Origin: Streptomyces sp. PCS3-D2
GTDB taxonomy: Bacteria; Actinomycetota; Actinomycetes; Streptomycetales; Streptomycetaceae
Length of the DNA: 64,000 nucleotides
Direction: 5' to 3'
NCBI RefSeq assembly: GCF_000612545.2
Contig: NZ_CP097800.1
Coordinates: 3,221,001-3,285,000 of the forward strand
A program made the translations under genes and the position numbers. Position 1 is the stretch's first letter, and the number at the start of each line of letters is the position of its first letter. The notes beneath the pieces are model-generated. The model was not told where the DNA came from. It worked only from the letters and a program-made list of their open reading frames with translations, and did no database searches. This document shows positions 48,646-58,231 of this stretch, one piece after another.

Positions 48646-49509
48646 GTGGACACGCTGGAGACCCGCGAGTTGAGGTACTTCGTCGCCGTCGCCGAGGAAC
48701 TGCACTTCGGGCGCGCGGCCGAGCGCCTCGGCATGGCCCAGCCGCCGCTGTCGCGGGCGATCCAGCAACTCGAACGGCGTCTCGGGGTCCGCCTGCTGGA
48801 GCGCAACCGCCGCGGCGTCTGCCTGACCGGCGCCGGAGAGGTGCTGCTGCACGAGGGCCGGGCGGCCCTCGACGCGAGCGCCGCCGCCGCTCGCCGCACC
48901 CGGCGCGCCGGTGGCGCCGACAGCCCCGGCGGCCCCCGCAGTCGGCTGGTCCTCGCGGTGAAGGCCGCCGCGTCCCACGAACTGCTGCGGAAACTCCTCG
49001 ACGCCTACGCGGCCGAGCCCGACGGTGCCGAGATCGAGGTGCTGCCGTGCGGCCTCTGCGAGCAGGAAGAGCTGCTGCGCGACGGACGCGCCGATGTCGC
49101 GCTCATGCACACGCCGTGGAACTCCCTCGCCGGATTCGACAGCGAGGCACTGACGACCGAGGGGCAGGTCGCCGTTCTGCCGGCCGGGCACCCCCTCGCC
49201 GCCCGCGAGACCCTGTCCCTGGCCGATGTCGAGGACGTCCCCGGTCTACCGCTCGCCCGCTGGCCCAGCCGCGGCATCTACGCGCCAGGCCCGGGCCCCG
49301 AGATCCACAACCAGACGCAACTGGCCCAGCTGATCGCCCTCGGACGCACCGTGGCGGTCGTCCCCGACTCCGCCCGTTCCTGGCTCTGGGCCGAGCACGC
49401 GGCCGTCCCCTTGACCGACGCACCTTCCGTGGTGACCCACATCGCCTGGCCCGCACACTCCCGCTCCCTCACCCTGGCCGGCCTGGTCCGCACGGCCGCA
49501 CGGCTATGA
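48646..49509 (+). CDS. LysR family transcriptional regulator
   Basis: A 287-aa LysR regulator with the N-terminal winged HTH (METRELRYFVAVAEELHFGRAAERLGMAQPPLSRAIQQLERRLGVRLLER-type; the start is GTG 48646 read as Met) and the C-terminal co-inducer-binding domain. Near residue 100 an Ala/Arg-rich linker (AAAARRTRRAGGAD) joins the two domains. It probably binds the palindrome at 48609-48629 and controls itself and the SDR gene. Ends 146 nt before the IS element. Confidence 0.92.
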   Translation: MDTLETRELRYFVAVAEELHFGRAAERLGMAQPPLSRAIQQLERRLGVRLLERNRRGVCLTGAGEVLLHEGRAALDASAAAARRTRRAGGADSPGGPRSRLVLAVKAAASHELLRKLLDAYAAEPDGAEIEVLPCGLCEQEELLRDGRADVALMHTPWNSLAGFDSEALTTEGQVAVLPAGHPLAARETLSLADVEDVPGLPLARWPSRGIYAPGPGPEIHNQTQLAQLIALGRTVAVVPDSARSWLWAEHAAVPLTDAPSVVTHIAWPAHSRSLTLAGLVRTAARL

Positions 49510-49655
49510 CCAGGTCCTACCCCCACCGGTCAGCACCCGGGACGGCTCAGGCGCCACCGGAGCCTGCGGGGGCCGGAGAAGCGGACCGATGGGACCGGAC
49601 CGCCTGAGCCGGGACACCGCTGGCGCCGGGTGGGGCCGGATGGGCCCGACGCCCC

Positions 49656-49917
49656 GTTATGTTTTCTGCGGTTCCGCAATGGGGCCGCTGGCCTCCGGGC
49701 CCGGCATGACTGTTGCCCCCTGTCGAAGGCATGACCTGGGGGGTGGTGTCACCGGGTCCGGGGGTGTTCGTCGGAGACGCTGATCAGAGGTCCGGCCACC
49801 GTCCGGTCCGGCGCAATGCTGGACAGTTCGCGGGCGGCAGGTCTGCATAACGTGGATGCGCGAGCACGACACCCGAGCCGAGGCCGGCACCGTCAACACC
49901 CCCTGGGAAGGGGCACG
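49656..49917 (+). ncRNA. candidate bridge RNA region of IS110 copy A
   Basis: The non-coding left end contains several GC-rich dyads (around 49665-49690 and 49780-49820). CATAACG lies at 49846-49852 and is complementary to the top-strand CGTTATG (49655-49661) at the element's own left end. A donor-binding guide in a bridge RNA should show this kind of self-complementarity. The exact RNA ends, folding and target loop are not determined; the same sequence is repeated in copy B at 51394-51400. Confidence 0.4.
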
Positions 49918-51135
49918 ATGTTCGAGATCGAAGACGTGGGCGTGTTCCTGGGCCTGGACGTCGGCAAGAGCAGCCATCACGGTCATGGGCTCACCCCGGG
50001 CGGGAAGAAGGTCTTCGACAAGCAGCTGCCCAACAGCGAGCCCAAGCTGCGGGCCGTCTTCGACAAGCTGACCGCGAAGTTCGGCACCGTGCTGGTGATC
50101 GTGGACCAGCCCGCCTCCATCGGCGCCCTGCCACTGACCGTCGCCCGCGACGCGGGCTGCCAGGTCGCCTACCTGCCCGGACTGGCGATGCGCCGGATCG
50201 CCGACCTCTACCCGGGCGAGGCCAAGACCGACGCCAAGGACGCCGCCGTCATCGCGGACGCCGCCCGGACGATGCCGCACACCCTGCGCTCGCTGGAGCT
50301 GACCGACCAGATCACCGCCGAGCTGACCGTGCTCGTCGGCTTCGACCAGGACCTGGCCGCCGAGGCCACCCGCACCTCCAACCGGATACGGGGCCTGCTC
50401 ACCCAGTTCCACCCCAGCCTGGAACGCGTCCTGGGCCCGCGCCTGGACCACCAGGCCGTGACCTGGCTGCTGGAGCGCTACGGATCCCCAGCCGCCCTGC
50501 GCAAGGCCGGACGCCGCAGACTCGTCGAGCTGATCCGCCCGAAGGCCCCGCGCATGGCCACCAGGCTGATCGACGACGTCTTCAACGCGCTCGACGAGCA
50601 GACCGTCGTCGTTCCCGGGACCGGCACCCTCGACATCGTCATCCCCTCCCTGGCCGCCTCGCTGGCCGCTGTCCACACCCAGCGCCGGGCGATGGAAGCC
50701 CAGATCAACGCCCTGCTGGAGGCTCACCCTCTTTCCCCGGTCCTGACGTCGATGCCCGGCGTCGGCGTCAGGACCGCCGCCGTCCTGCTGGTCACCGTCG
50801 GCGACGGCACCAGCTTCCCCACCGCCGCCCACCTCGCCTCCTACGCCGGCCTCGCCCCCACCACGAAGCAGTCCGGGACCTCGATCCATGGCGAACACGC
50901 ACCCCGAGGCGGAAACCGGCAGCTCAAACGGGCGATGTTTCTCTCCGCCTTCGCCTGCATGAACGCCGACCCGGCCTCCCGCGCCTACTACGACAAGCAA
51001 CGAGCACGCGGCAAAACCCACACCCAGGCCCTCCTCCGCCTCGCCCGCCAACGCATCAGCGTCCTGTTCGCCATGCTCCGCGACGGCACCTTCTACGAAT
51101 CCCGGACACCGACGGACGTCGAGCTCGCCGCTTAG
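49918..51135 (+). CDS. IS110 family transposase (DEDD recombinase), copy A
   Basis: A 405-aa recombinase starting at ATG 49918 (GGGAAGGGG upstream; an extension to 49816 covers the non-coding end). The RuvC-like N-terminal DEDD domain has Asp14 (FLGLDVGKSSH), Asp63 in IVDQPAS where the family has Glu or Asp, and Asp105/Asp108 in KTDAKDAA. The C-terminal Transposase_20 domain has MPGVGVRTAAVLL, the serine Ser319 in KQSGTSIHGE and GNRQLKRAMFLSAF. It moves the element with an RNA guide in known relatives. Intact and identical to copy B. Confidence 0.93.
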   Translation: MFEIEDVGVFLGLDVGKSSHHGHGLTPGGKKVFDKQLPNSEPKLRAVFDKLTAKFGTVLVIVDQPASIGALPLTVARDAGCQVAYLPGLAMRRIADLYPGEAKTDAKDAAVIADAARTMPHTLRSLELTDQITAELTVLVGFDQDLAAEATRTSNRIRGLLTQFHPSLERVLGPRLDHQAVTWLLERYGSPAALRKAGRRRLVELIRPKAPRMATRLIDDVFNALDEQTVVVPGTGTLDIVIPSLAASLAAVHTQRRAMEAQINALLEAHPLSPVLTSMPGVGVRTAAVLLVTVGDGTSFPTAAHLASYAGLAPTTKQSGTSIHGEHAPRGGNRQLKRAMFLSAFACMNADPASRAYYDKQRARGKTHTQALLRLARQRISVLFAMLRDGTFYESRTPTDVELAA

Positions 51136-51176
51136 CCTCAGCGAGCCCGAACCACCCGAAACCCGACACAGGTGCC

Positions 51177-51211
51177 TTGACGAAAGACATAGAGGCACCC
51201 CCCGTTATGTT
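51177..51211 (+). promoter_or_regulatory. right-end/left-end junction with candidate promoter
   Basis: The fused right end of copy A and left end of copy B bring TTGACG (51177-51182) close to TTATGT/TATGTT (51205-51211). Similar junctions in circular IS110 intermediates create promoters for the bridge RNA and transposase. The gap here, 22-23 nt, is longer than ideal. Confidence 0.4.
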
Positions 51212-52751
51212 TTCTGCGGTTCCGCAATGGGGCCGCTGGCCTCCGGGCCCGGCATGACTGTTGCCCCCTGTCGAAGGCATGACCTGGGGGGTGGTGTCAC
51301 CGGGTCCGGGGGTGTTCGTCGGAGACGCTGATCAGAGGTCCGGCCACCGTCCGGTCCGGCGCAATGCTGGACAGTTCGCGGGCGGCAGGTCTGCATAACG
51401 TGGATGCGCGAGCACGACACCCGAGCCGAGGCCGGCACCGTCAACACCCCCTGGGAAGGGGCACGATGTTCGAGATCGAAGACGTGGGCGTGTTCCTGGG
51501 CCTGGACGTCGGCAAGAGCAGCCATCACGGTCATGGGCTCACCCCGGGCGGGAAGAAGGTCTTCGACAAGCAGCTGCCCAACAGCGAGCCCAAGCTGCGG
51601 GCCGTCTTCGACAAGCTGACCGCGAAGTTCGGCACCGTGCTGGTGATCGTGGACCAGCCCGCCTCCATCGGCGCCCTGCCACTGACCGTCGCCCGCGACG
51701 CGGGCTGCCAGGTCGCCTACCTGCCCGGACTGGCGATGCGCCGGATCGCCGACCTCTACCCGGGCGAGGCCAAGACCGACGCCAAGGACGCCGCCGTCAT
51801 CGCGGACGCCGCCCGGACGATGCCGCACACCCTGCGCTCGCTGGAGCTGACCGACCAGATCACCGCCGAGCTGACCGTGCTCGTCGGCTTCGACCAGGAC
51901 CTGGCCGCCGAGGCCACCCGCACCTCCAACCGGATACGGGGCCTGCTCACCCAGTTCCACCCCAGCCTGGAACGCGTCCTGGGCCCGCGCCTGGACCACC
52001 AGGCCGTGACCTGGCTGCTGGAGCGCTACGGATCCCCAGCCGCCCTGCGCAAGGCCGGACGCCGCAGACTCGTCGAGCTGATCCGCCCGAAGGCCCCGCG
52101 CATGGCCACCAGGCTGATCGACGACGTCTTCAACGCGCTCGACGAGCAGACCGTCGTCGTTCCCGGGACCGGCACCCTCGACATCGTCATCCCCTCCCTG
52201 GCCGCCTCGCTGGCCGCTGTCCACACCCAGCGCCGGGCGATGGAAGCCCAGATCAACGCCCTGCTGGAGGCTCACCCTCTTTCCCCGGTCCTGACGTCGA
52301 TGCCCGGCGTCGGCGTCAGGACCGCCGCCGTCCTGCTGGTCACCGTCGGCGACGGCACCAGCTTCCCCACCGCCGCCCACCTCGCCTCCTACGCCGGCCT
52401 CGCCCCCACCACGAAGCAGTCCGGGACCTCGATCCATGGCGAACACGCACCCCGAGGCGGAAACCGGCAGCTCAAACGGGCGATGTTTCTCTCCGCCTTC
52501 GCCTGCATGAACGCCGACCCGGCCTCCCGCGCCTACTACGACAAGCAACGAGCACGCGGCAAAACCCACACCCAGGCCCTCCTCCGCCTCGCCCGCCAAC
52601 GCATCAGCGTCCTGTTCGCCATGCTCCGCGACGGCACCTTCTACGAATCCCGGACACCGACGGACGTCGAGCTCGCCGCTTAGCCTCAGCGAGCCCGAAC
52701 CACCCGAAACCCGACACAGGTGCCTTGACGAAAGACATAGAGGCACCCCCC
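51204..52751 (+). mobile_element. IS110-family element, copy B (1548 bp)
   Basis: Second copy, apparently identical over its length to copy A (both proteins and non-coding ends agree wherever compared), in direct orientation with no spacer. Its right end joins the 8-bp repeat CGTCACGG. Tandem copies can arise by insertion of a circular form next to a resident copy, by replication errors, or through assembly error. The extra C in the right junction compared with the internal junction fits a CC-type core. Confidence 0.9.
51466..52683 (+). CDS. IS110 family transposase, copy B
   Basis: The same 405-aa protein as copy A, with the same start context and no differences seen in translation. It is intact, so both copies could be active. 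It lies downstream of the junction promoter candidate, so of the two copies this one is most likely expressed if the junction promoter works. Confidence 0.93.
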   Translation: MFEIEDVGVFLGLDVGKSSHHGHGLTPGGKKVFDKQLPNSEPKLRAVFDKLTAKFGTVLVIVDQPASIGALPLTVARDAGCQVAYLPGLAMRRIADLYPGEAKTDAKDAAVIADAARTMPHTLRSLELTDQITAELTVLVGFDQDLAAEATRTSNRIRGLLTQFHPSLERVLGPRLDHQAVTWLLERYGSPAALRKAGRRRLVELIRPKAPRMATRLIDDVFNALDEQTVVVPGTGTLDIVIPSLAASLAAVHTQRRAMEAQINALLEAHPLSPVLTSMPGVGVRTAAVLLVTVGDGTSFPTAAHLASYAGLAPTTKQSGTSIHGEHAPRGGNRQLKRAMFLSAFACMNADPASRAYYDKQRARGKTHTQALLRLARQRISVLFAMLRDGTFYESRTPTDVELAA

Positions 52752-52783
52752 CGTCACGGCGTCACGGCGTCACGGCGTCACGG
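52752..52783. repeat. 8-bp tandem repeat CGTCACGG, four copies
   Basis: Four perfect units (52752-52783) lie immediately beside the right end of IS110 copy B and run into the stop codon of the MDR gene at 52778-52780. The repeat supplies several potential IS target cores (CCGTCACGG). The IS right-end C-run merges with it. Confidence 0.85.
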
Positions 52784-53719
52784 CGTCAGGACGATCCTGC
52801 CGCGCACGCCCGGCGTCGCGAGCAGGTCGTGCGCCTTCGCCGCCTCGGCGAGCGGGAAGACCTCCGCGACCCGCAGGGTGAGCGCGCCCTCCTCGACCAG
52901 GGACACCAGGCGGGCCAGCAGTTCCCCGTCCGCCGCGACCTCCTGCTCCTCCACCCGGATGCCGCGCTCCGCAGCCGGGGCGTGGTGCGGGATCAGGCCC
53001 ACGTAGACCCCGCCGTCGCGGACGAGGGCCAGTGCGGCCCCGCCCAGGACGGCCGCGTCCAGGACCCCGTCCACCGGTCCGGCCGGAGCGCTGCCGCGCG
53101 GCACGAAGGCGGCCGCGCCGAGCGACCGTACGAGCTCCTCGTCCCCCGGGCCCGCCAGGGCCGTCACCACCAGTCCGGCCCGCGCGGCGAGCTGCACCGC
53201 CAGGCCTCCGACCATCCCCGCGGCGCCGGTGACCAGCACCGAGGAGCCGGGGGCGAGCCCCAGCTGGTCCACCGCGCGGGCGGCGGTCAGGCCGGCCAGC
53301 GGCAGCGCGGCCGCGACCGGGTCGTCCGCCGCGGCCGGCGCGGCGGCCACGGCGGAGGCATCGAGCACCGCGTACTCCGCGTGCGTGCCCAGCGGCTTCA
53401 CCGGGCCGTGGTGCAGGCCCACTACTCGGTCGCCGCGGTTCCAGCCGGCCACCCCCGGGCCGGTCTCGTCGATCTTCCCGACGACGTCCCAGCCGAGGCC
53501 GATCCGCTGCCCGGCCCCGCCGAAGATCCCGGTGCGGACCCCTGCGTCCACCGGGTTGAGCCCGGCGGCCGCGACCTTGATCCTGACCTGGCCCGCCTCC
53601 GGACGCGGCACCGGCACCTCGGCCAGCTCGACCCGCTCCGGGCCGCCGAACCCGGTCACCACGGCCGCCAGCATCGTCCGCTCGTCCATGGTCGATGCGC
53701 TCATCGTCCGCTCGTTCAT
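52778..53719 (-). CDS. NADP-dependent MDR oxidoreductase (quinone reductase-like)
   Basis: A 313-aa zinc-independent medium-chain dehydrogenase/reductase. It has an N-terminal GroES-like domain (VRIKVAAAGLNPVDAGVRTGIFGG) and a Rossmann motif VTGAAGMVGGLAVQLA. No catalytic zinc Cys/His set is present, as in quinone oxidoreductases. The start ATG 53719 follows GGGGAGAACG; the N-terminus contains a duplicated GAGCGGACGATG element (ERTM twice). It is divergent from an HxlR regulator, a pairing known in other actinobacteria for quinone or electrophile detoxification. The 3' end lies in the 8-bp repeats next to the IS. Confidence 0.92.
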   Translation of the reverse strand: MNERTMSASTMDERTMLAAVVTGFGGPERVELAEVPVPRPEAGQVRIKVAAAGLNPVDAGVRTGIFGGAGQRIGLGWDVVGKIDETGPGVAGWNRGDRVVGLHHGPVKPLGTHAEYAVLDASAVAAAPAAADDPVAAALPLAGLTAARAVDQLGLAPGSSVLVTGAAGMVGGLAVQLAARAGLVVTALAGPGDEELVRSLGAAAFVPRGSAPAGPVDGVLDAAVLGGAALALVRDGGVYVGLIPHHAPAAERGIRVEEQEVAADGELLARLVSLVEEGALTLRVAEVFPLAEAAKAHDLLATPGVRGRIVLTP

Positions 53720-57037: not shown

Positions 57038-58231
57038 TCAGCCCTTGACGCAGATGACCTGCTTGAGCTTGGCCACGACCTGGACGAGGTCGGTCTGCTG
57101 ATCGATGACCTGCTCGATCGACTTGTACGCGCCCGGGATCTCGTCCACCACGCCCGAGTCCTTGCGGCACTCGACGCCCTTCGTCTGCTCCACCAGGTCG
57201 CGCGCCGAGAACTTCTTCTTCGCCGCGGTACGGCTCATCTTCCGGCCCGCTCCGTGCGAGGCCGAGTTGAAGGCCTTCTCGTTGCCGAGCCCCTTCACGA
57301 TGTACGAACCCGTGCCCATCGAGCCGGGGATGATCCCGTAGTCACCACTGCCGGCGCGGATCGCGCCCTTGCGGGTGACCAGCAGGTCCATGCCGTCGTA
57401 CCGCTCTTCCGCCACGTAGTTGTGGTGGCAGCTGATCTCTCGGTCGAAGGAGACCCGGGCCTTGCGGAACTCCTTGCGGACGACCTCCTTGAACAGGCTC
57501 ATCATCGCCGCGCGGTTCAGCTTCGCGTACTCCTGCGCCCAGAAGAGGTCGTTGCGGTACGCCTCCATCTCCTGCGTGGCCGCGAGGAAGACCGCCAGGT
57601 CCCGGTCGACGAGGTTCTGGTTGTGGGAGAGCCCGCGGGCGACGCCGATGTGGTGCGCGGCGAGCTCGTTCCCGATGTTCCGGGAGCCGGAGTGCAGCAT
57701 CAGCCAGACCGAGCCCTGCTCGTCCAGGCAGAACTCGATGAAGTGGTTTCCGCTTCCGAGCGTCCCGATCTGCTTCGCGGCGCGTTCCCGGCGCGGCTTG
57801 ACCGCATCGGTGAGCCAGTCGAACCGCTTCCACAGATCCTCGTACCCCTGCACCGAGAAGCCGTACAGCCGCGACGGGTCCACGGCCTCCTTGTGCATCC
57901 CCATGCCCACCGGGATCGCCTGCTCGATCTTCGAGCGGAGCTTGGAGAGGTCACCCGGGAGGTCGTTCGCCGTCAGGGAGGTTTTCACCGCCGACATGCC
58001 GCAGCCGATGTCCACGCCCACCGCCGCCGGACAGACCGCGTCCTTCATCGCGATCACCGAGCCGACGGTGGCCCCCTTGCCGTAGTGGACGTCCGGCATG
58101 ACGGCCAGACCCTTGATCCACGGAAGCGTGGCGACGTTGTGGAGCTGCTGCATCGCCCCCGGCTCGACCGACGCCGGGTCGGTCCACATCCGGATCGGGA
58201 CCTGCGCCCCCGGTACCTCTACGTACGACAT
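57038..58231 (-). CDS. rtcB: RNA-splicing ligase RtcB family protein
   Basis: A 397-aa RtcB. Metal-binding residues occur in VMPDVHYGKGATVGSV and VGVDIGCGM (the conserved Cys). The GTP-guanylylation histidine is in SASHGAGRKMSR, preceded by CHHNYVAEE. The enzyme joins 2',3'-cyclic phosphate (or 3'-phosphate) and 5'-OH RNA ends through an RtcB-GMP intermediate. Archease is not encoded within the window. It lies alone on the minus strand. Confidence 0.94.
   Translation of the reverse strand: MSYVEVPGAQVPIRMWTDPASVEPGAMQQLHNVATLPWIKGLAVMPDVHYGKGATVGSVIAMKDAVCPAAVGVDIGCGMSAVKTSLTANDLPGDLSKLRSKIEQAIPVGMGMHKEAVDPSRLYGFSVQGYEDLWKRFDWLTDAVKPRRERAAKQIGTLGSGNHFIEFCLDEQGSVWLMLHSGSRNIGNELAAHHIGVARGLSHNQNLVDRDLAVFLAATQEMEAYRNDLFWAQEYAKLNRAAMMSLFKEVVRKEFRKARVSFDREISCHHNYVAEERYDGMDLLVTRKGAIRAGSGDYGIIPGSMGTGSYIVKGLGNEKAFNSASHGAGRKMSRTAAKKKFSARDLVEQTKGVECRKDSGVVDEIPGAYKSIEQVIDQQTDLVQVVAKLKQVICVKG

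Follow-up and report, generated by a model that had tools for sequence, protein, structure and literature searches.

A head-to-tail pair of identical IS110-group elements in Streptomyces sp. PCS3-D2 with a predicted bridge RNA in their left ends

The stretch of DNA analysed here (the window) comprises 64 kb of the 7.6-Mb genome of Streptomyces sp. PCS3-D2 (G000, contig 1, 3221001-3285000) and contains two head-to-tail copies of an IS110-group element. Each copy is very probably an autonomous insertion sequence with a bridge RNA encoded in its left end, and comparison with related elements showed its boundaries, its predicted donor guides and left target guide, and its putative RNA stems. The bridge RNA mechanism is already published for other IS110 elements, and since bridge RNAs are predicted in 85.7% of IS110-group elements according to PMC11208160, one was to be expected here. 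What the present case offers is three of the four bridge RNA guides documented from natural sequence alone in a high-copy Streptomyces element family whose natural guide swaps are ready-made experiments, together with an explanation of head-to-tail IS110 arrays that is concrete and testable, and a variant of the active site. A first-pass annotation of the same DNA had found one of the four guides, the right donor guide.

Elements, boundaries and recombinase

The two copies lie at 49652-51203 and 51200-52751 on the plus strand and are 100% identical, and the tandem of identical IS110 elements proposed in the first-pass annotation is borne out as an exact 1552-bp repeat with both Pfam domains of the family. 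The repeat period is 1548 bp; the identity spans 1552 bp although the unit is 1548 bp because the copies share, and overlap by, CCCC at the joints. Measured from core to core, copy 1 occupies 49653..51202 and copy 2 51201..52750 (both plus strand), the core having been placed from joints in the source genome and in relatives. The core dinucleotide CC would be 49653..49654 on the left of copy 1 (plus strand) and recurs at 51201-51202 and 52749-52750, as judged from variation among joints. Left joints in the source genome read [C or T]CCC-GTTATG and right joints read ATAGAGGCACC followed by three to six C and then the flank, and at the tandem joint six C separate GGCA from GTTATG. Since one site has three C (L003) and another has T at the first C (L004), the two-base core should correspond to C four and C five of the donor joint. 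Sorted by guide class, the left core bases of relatives were C in 40/41, 107/109 and 26/26 sites and the preceding base in 40, 102 and 25 of them. On their right side each core base was C in 155 of 156 sites and the next base in 151, and the three element-owned C before the core were invariant (six joints that run, or seem to run, into another left end are excluded from the 156).

The genomic target flanks of the tandem are CCCGACGC on the left (49645..49652, plus strand) and CCGTCACG on the right (52751..52758, plus strand), the right flank opening with four copies of the 8-bp repeat CGTCACGG (52752-52783). An empty site was sought in the four best relative loci and none was shown there: of 300 left-flank bases no more than 194 aligned (L298), and the right flank matched only as a single 21-base piece. 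The left end ahead of the conserved start codon is 49656-49917, the very 262 nt that had been assigned to it in the earlier annotation, and the right end is about 65 nt; a long RNA-holding left end with a short right end places the element in the IS110 group as opposed to IS1111.

The recombinase gene (49918..51135, plus strand; 51466-52683 in copy 2) starts at the conserved ATG at 49918 and encodes 405 amino acids. PF01548 (expectation value, E, 8.7e-50; 168.9 bits) and PF02371 (E 1.1e-23; 83.8 bits) occur together in this one protein, whose length falls within the about 300-460 amino acids of IS110 family recombinases, and the assignment is further backed by alignment and by matches to the solved structures of IS621 and ISCro4. 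D14, D63, D105 and D108 match D11, E60, D102 and D105 of IS621 by position with a constant offset of +3, and S319 aligns with the IS621 serine S241 (IS621 residue numbers from PMC11208158); domains and catalytic positions would therefore appear to fit IS621, although in the IS621 sequence search only the C-terminal domain aligned convincingly. The second position of the catalytic DEDD motif is aspartate here (D63, window 50104-50106), not glutamate. Aspartate also stands there in 12 relatives aligned with the element and glutamate in L160, the relatives listed with the substitution being L141-L144, L149-L152, L154-L156, L311 and L312. Among other members of the phylum 2 of 18 have aspartate and 16 of 18 glutamate, these 18 remaining from 21 alignments attempted among 30 fetched loci after three without a usable alignment were set aside. 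Mutation of E60 abolishes the activity of IS621, as reported in PMC11208158.

The source genome holds ten full-length copies, counting the tandem pair, plus one interrupted and one truncated. Near-identical elements are found in named Streptomyces records, and protein matches at E up to 0.001 occur in 345 of 393 genomes of the genus, many of them far less similar. The nearest annotated name met was ISSgr1, a plasmid annotation name (WP_037846392.1) whose copy in NZ_CP109295.1 shows 91.3% nucleotide identity over the whole element, a comparison with this copy and not with an ISfinder reference. No paper in the collection searched carried that name, and a search on bridge RNA and Streptomyces returned, by title, no work on a Streptomyces element. 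Near element position 130 the interrupted eleventh copy (contig 1, 56408-59449; L013, L011) is broken by about 1.5 kb holding a different IS110-family gene (57299-57778, minus strand), with equal-scoring matches at 344956 and 6741772, hence one IS110 within another.

Donor and target guides

CATAACG at 49846-49852, inside the left end, is complementary to CGTTATG at 49655-49661, at the element's own left boundary, a self-match that the first-pass annotation had read as a sign of RNA-guided recombination. In dinucleotide shuffles of the left end (5000 for each measure) CATAACG arose at a frequency of 0.0012 and any of the eight left-boundary 7-mers at 0.0076; a match by chance is unlikely. The RNA-guided reading gains from the relatives, where the internal match changes along with the left boundary: the boundary/guide pairs co-vary as CGTTAT/ATAACG, CATTAC/GTAATG and CGTTAC/GTAACG and, in relatives whose proteins are about 36-38% identical, as CCTTAC/GTAAGG (L150 and L151) and CATCCCTAC/GTAGGGATG (L152). 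Of the 200 left ends extracted, two opposite-strand readings were set aside, and in 197 of the remaining 198 the guide agrees with the right donor at both variable positions; the test rests on these two free positions only, since the extraction pattern fixed the TTA/TAA middle of the match. Six bases of the self-match are kept or compensated in relatives, apart from one left end; the seventh base, which the earlier annotation had counted in, is not conserved, as L133 and L135 carry CGTTATC with the same guide and the match is cut to six. The right donor would accordingly be CGTTAT (49655..49660, plus strand; 51203-51208 in copy 2), and the comparison supports CATAACG-T-GG (49846..49855, plus strand) as the putative right donor guide, in which ATAACG would pair with the right donor, T would stay unpaired and GG matches the CC core. 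A similar gap is seen in IS621, whose right donor pairing is described as discontiguous (PMC11208160).

On the other side of the donor, AGAGG at 49786-49790, the first part of the predicted left donor guide AGAGGTCC (49786..49793, plus strand), equals AGAGG at 51191-51195, 1.4 kb away in the right end, within the left donor ATAGAGGCACCC (51189..51200, plus strand; 52737-52748 in copy 2). The right-end variants AGAGA, AGGGG and AGGGA are mirrored letter for letter in the left end, and with four variants in all the two ends agree in 168 of 168 scorable elements, as read from the tabulation (in the other 32 of the 200 the right end or the left donor guide was not found). In the group of about 36% protein identity the left donor match is shorter or partial, with TTGAGAAT in L152, TTGAGA in L149 and L151, and a partial match only in L150.

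The predicted left target guide, GTTGCCC (49712..49718, plus strand; core equivalent 49717-49718), follows a conserved motif, (C/T)ATG(A/G)CT, after which the element reads GTTGCCCCC. Its fourth base and, more weakly, its third covary with the genomic flank over 176 sites, which remained from 200 left ends once six tandem flanks, five left ends without a recognised target guide and three duplicate flanks had been dropped (leaving 186), followed by ten more with the guide TCCC. Where guide base 4 is G, flank base -4 is a purine in 28/41 sites, and where it is T or C the flank base is a pyrimidine in 127/135 (p about 1e-15); among the ten offsets tested the next best were -5 (p 0.009) and then -11 (p 0.03). 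A guide C goes with a flank C in 25/26 sites and a guide T with C in 83 and T in 19 of 109 (C or T in 102/109), the split that wobble predicts. When guides were permuted, the observed 442/704 matches stood against a null of 385 +/- 9.5 and none of 10000 permutations reached as high; guide position three also exceeded its shuffles (103/176 vs 84.6). In more distant relatives, the three separate insertion sites of L152 and its two sister copies have TCAAGCAT in common, a sequence that the guide contains as well; in L156 and L296 the sites read TCA(C/T)GCCG and the guide TCATGTCG.

The right target guide is presumably ACCTGGGGGG (49734..49743, plus strand), placed by its position and its complementarity to the C tract. 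It hardly varies, and the first base of the right flank after the core is C in 151/156 sites. The C run at 49716-49720 and the G run at 49738-49743 are mutually complementary, because the target and the guides are C and G runs, and are paired by RNAalifold; a free target loop may be closed by such guide-guide pairing before it meets DNA. Two candidate loops matching donor and target can be recognised overall, with covariation behind three of the four guides and the fourth inferred.

By analogy with IS621, the recombinase would excise the element at the CC cores as a circle that joins the right end to the left end. The donor loop would hold this joint, with AGAGG reading as the right end and ATAACG-T-GG pairing with the left boundary and core, and the target loop, with GTTGCCC on one side and the G run on the other, would hold a C tract (R-C-CC-C) in the genome. 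The element would then be inserted by strand exchange at CC, with no other change to the target.

RNA structure and competing explanations

The structure of the left end was assessed on an alignment of 44 rows (A1) chosen from 63 representatives, 28 of which made up a second alignment (A2) and the covariance model R1. Four predicted helices with 26 chosen pairs have 97.7% of their cells paired over the 44 left ends, and 13 pairs are changed on both sides. Stem-loop 1 of the putative bridge RNA (49670..49686, plus strand) contributes 6 pairs, 5 of them with change on both sides, and the target-binding stem and loop (49696..49760, plus strand), which R1 also matches, 13 pairs with 99.5% of cells paired and 6 changed on both sides; the short outer donor helix, a by-eye addition, has no pair changed on both sides. 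None of 500 shuffles scored as high as the stem pairs on any of five measures, and moving the partner by one to three columns left 38-45% paired, a comparison in which the chosen pairs are favoured since most of the 26 came from this alignment's own RNAalifold consensus. The conserved RNA structure expected of an IS110 bridge RNA is therefore predicted here from covariation. The left end alone folds no better than its own shuffles (z -0.73; 50/200 at least as good), so single-sequence folding provides no evidence.

The candidate bridge RNA of the first-pass annotation also gains covariance support from R1, a model of 99 positions built here, and not a published bridge-RNA model, that covers stem-loop 1 and the target loop. 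Over the whole window both left ends score 109.9 bits with it, against 14.7 bits for the next match. Among 28 other loci it matched L293, L153, L291 and L161 at 72.1 to 50.7 bits and L158 at 23.9 bits; the first four have proteins about 60-66% identical or are copies of such elements, and L293 is a sister of the training row L143. Its matches in the 36% group were weak and confined to L150 (18.5 bits) and L152 (14.3 bits).

The complementarity of the left boundary and CATAACG could also be a long-range stem in one RNA instead of RNA-DNA guide pairing, as RNAalifold pairs columns 2-6 with 207-211, where changes are compensatory and no pair is broken in any of the 44 sequences, and covariation alone cannot separate the two. 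However, a stem within the left end leaves unexplained why AGAGG has the same letters as the right end rather than the complement and co-varies with that end in every scorable element. The pairing moreover ends at base 6 and resumes as GG at the core after one base, like the discontiguous pairing given for IS621 in PMC11208160, and if the RNA starts inside the left end, as in IS621 in that same account, the boundary would lie outside it; we regard a long-range stem as very improbable. Less probable still is that the left end is conserved as a protein-binding or regulatory leader, with the target preference coming from the protein alone. Conserved left ends are indeed expected among related elements, the target is a simple C tract, and the guide classes follow clades whose proteins differ too, but across separate sites the target base tracks the guide base, with one offset far ahead of the rest and an RNA-like wobble pattern, and where distant relatives carry other guides their targets differ to match.

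A bridge RNA in the left end thus remains the preferred reading, and several observations weigh against it. Rfam gave no relevant match and none above its curated score in the window, the only hits at E up to 1 over 49600-51250 being sub-threshold ones to ASdes and mir-598. In the RNAalifold consensus the base of the target stem (columns 40-44) has the left donor guide region (columns 145-149) as its pairing partner, at odds with the proposed open donor loop; these pairs are not among the 26 counted. Target guide positions 1 and 2 showed no covariation (67/176 and 117/176 vs null values of 71.5 and 116.3), a pyrimidine occurs at 13 of the 41 sites with guide G, and the right target guide, presumed from its G run, shows little variation. 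One left end among the 198 is discordant, and no donor/guide pair was recognised in L149, one of the four relatives of about 36% identity that were read. The donor-guide changes come from few lineages, and with many rows being copies or close relatives the counts overstate independence. Where IS621 needs glutamate (PMC11208158), the second catalytic residue here is aspartate, and a scan of 49500-53000 for canonical sigma-70 promoters with 16-18-nt spacing gave no site, other promoter types lying outside the scan. Finally, transcription, ribonucleoprotein formation and circles are predictions, as are the right target guide and the origin of the tandem.

IS621 (PMC11208160, PMC11208158) shares with the present element the RuvC-like and Tnp domains, a long left end and short right end, a two-base core, left guides that read as the top strand and right guides that pair with it, and discontiguous right donor pairing; ATA and TAT, which flank the donor here, are a further shared trait. 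Unlike in IS621, the core here is CC, the target is a C tract, the target guides are mutually complementary, aspartate occupies the E60 position and the junction lacks canonical promoter spacing. PMC11187229 describes ISEc21, of the IS110 family, as having a non-coding region upstream of the gene, as here, whose RNA selects the target, and ends that are abutted in a circle, as in IS1111 elements with seekRNA and as predicted for this element. ISEc21 differs in inserting into a conserved stretch of IS3-family transposase genes, and in IS1111 elements the non-coding region usually follows the gene, with the order of the target-matching parts reversed (PMC11187229).

The right-end/left-end joint and the origin of the tandem

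The head-to-tail placement creates a right-end/left-end joint (51178..51211, plus strand) with TTGACG (51178-51183) and TATGTT (51206-51211) 22 nt apart, which reads TTGACG-AAAGACATAGAGGCACCCCCC-GTTATG over 51178-51209. The earlier annotation had pointed to a fixed junction with a TTGACG box of the kind normally confined to circular forms; the joint is there, but TTGACG lies inside the right end of every full-length copy, and all that sets the joint apart is that a left end comes next. The RNA of IS621 begins within the left end, from a promoter that spans the junction (PMC11208160); at canonical spacing no such promoter is present here, and the feature played no part in assigning the element to its group. 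TTGAC is kept about 6-7 nt before an ATAG/ATTG-like motif in the right ends of L142 and L149-L152, even in the 36%-identical relatives. If the ends of L152 were abutted at the core, TTGAC would come about 17 nt ahead of TACCGT, compared with 22 nt here.

The resemblance of the element's own right end to its target may explain the tandem, in that a second circle would have used the end of the first element as its target, with the left joint of the tandem keeping the original one. By a hand count the right end GGCACCC agrees with the guide GTTGCCC at 6/7 positions when wobble is allowed, and it agrees at 3/4 variable guide positions, which equals the median of the nine scored own-genome sites. 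The window has 547 candidate RCCCC sites, both strands counted, or about 65000 when scaled to the genome; with sites so frequent, chance adjacency would be rare. We consider it unlikely that replication slippage, unequal crossing over or an assembly error produced the tandem instead of targeted insertion. The copies are 100% identical and sequencing reads lay outside the data, which leaves room for an assembly error, and homologous recombination can change the copy number once two copies exist. Unequal crossing over would not, however, make the first exact core-to-core joint, and the joint pattern recurs in 8 of 296 genomes of the genus, the source genome included, with left-end-like sequence following in 7 of the 8 (again with the source, and not in L138). 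Two other same-type tandems have copies that are 99.93% (L245) and 98.25% (L133) identical, and some joints link different elements (L058, to a 70%-identical one, L135) or an element to a fragment (L061).

Targeted insertion into the element's own end would also fit a broader, tentative proposal, which we put forward as possible rather than probable: a relaxed-specificity branch of bridge recombinases with a D-D-D-D plus serine active site and a target loop reading about five C-tract bases, for which own ends are targets and tandem or mixed arrays form repeatedly. If true, such a branch would provide natural guide/target pairs for measuring the minimum number of guide bases that a bridge recombinase needs.

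Mixed core-to-core tandems were observed in L058 (3277-4719), L061 (2495-2900), L089 (1525-1900) and L090 (1400-1760), some of the second elements being fragmentary.

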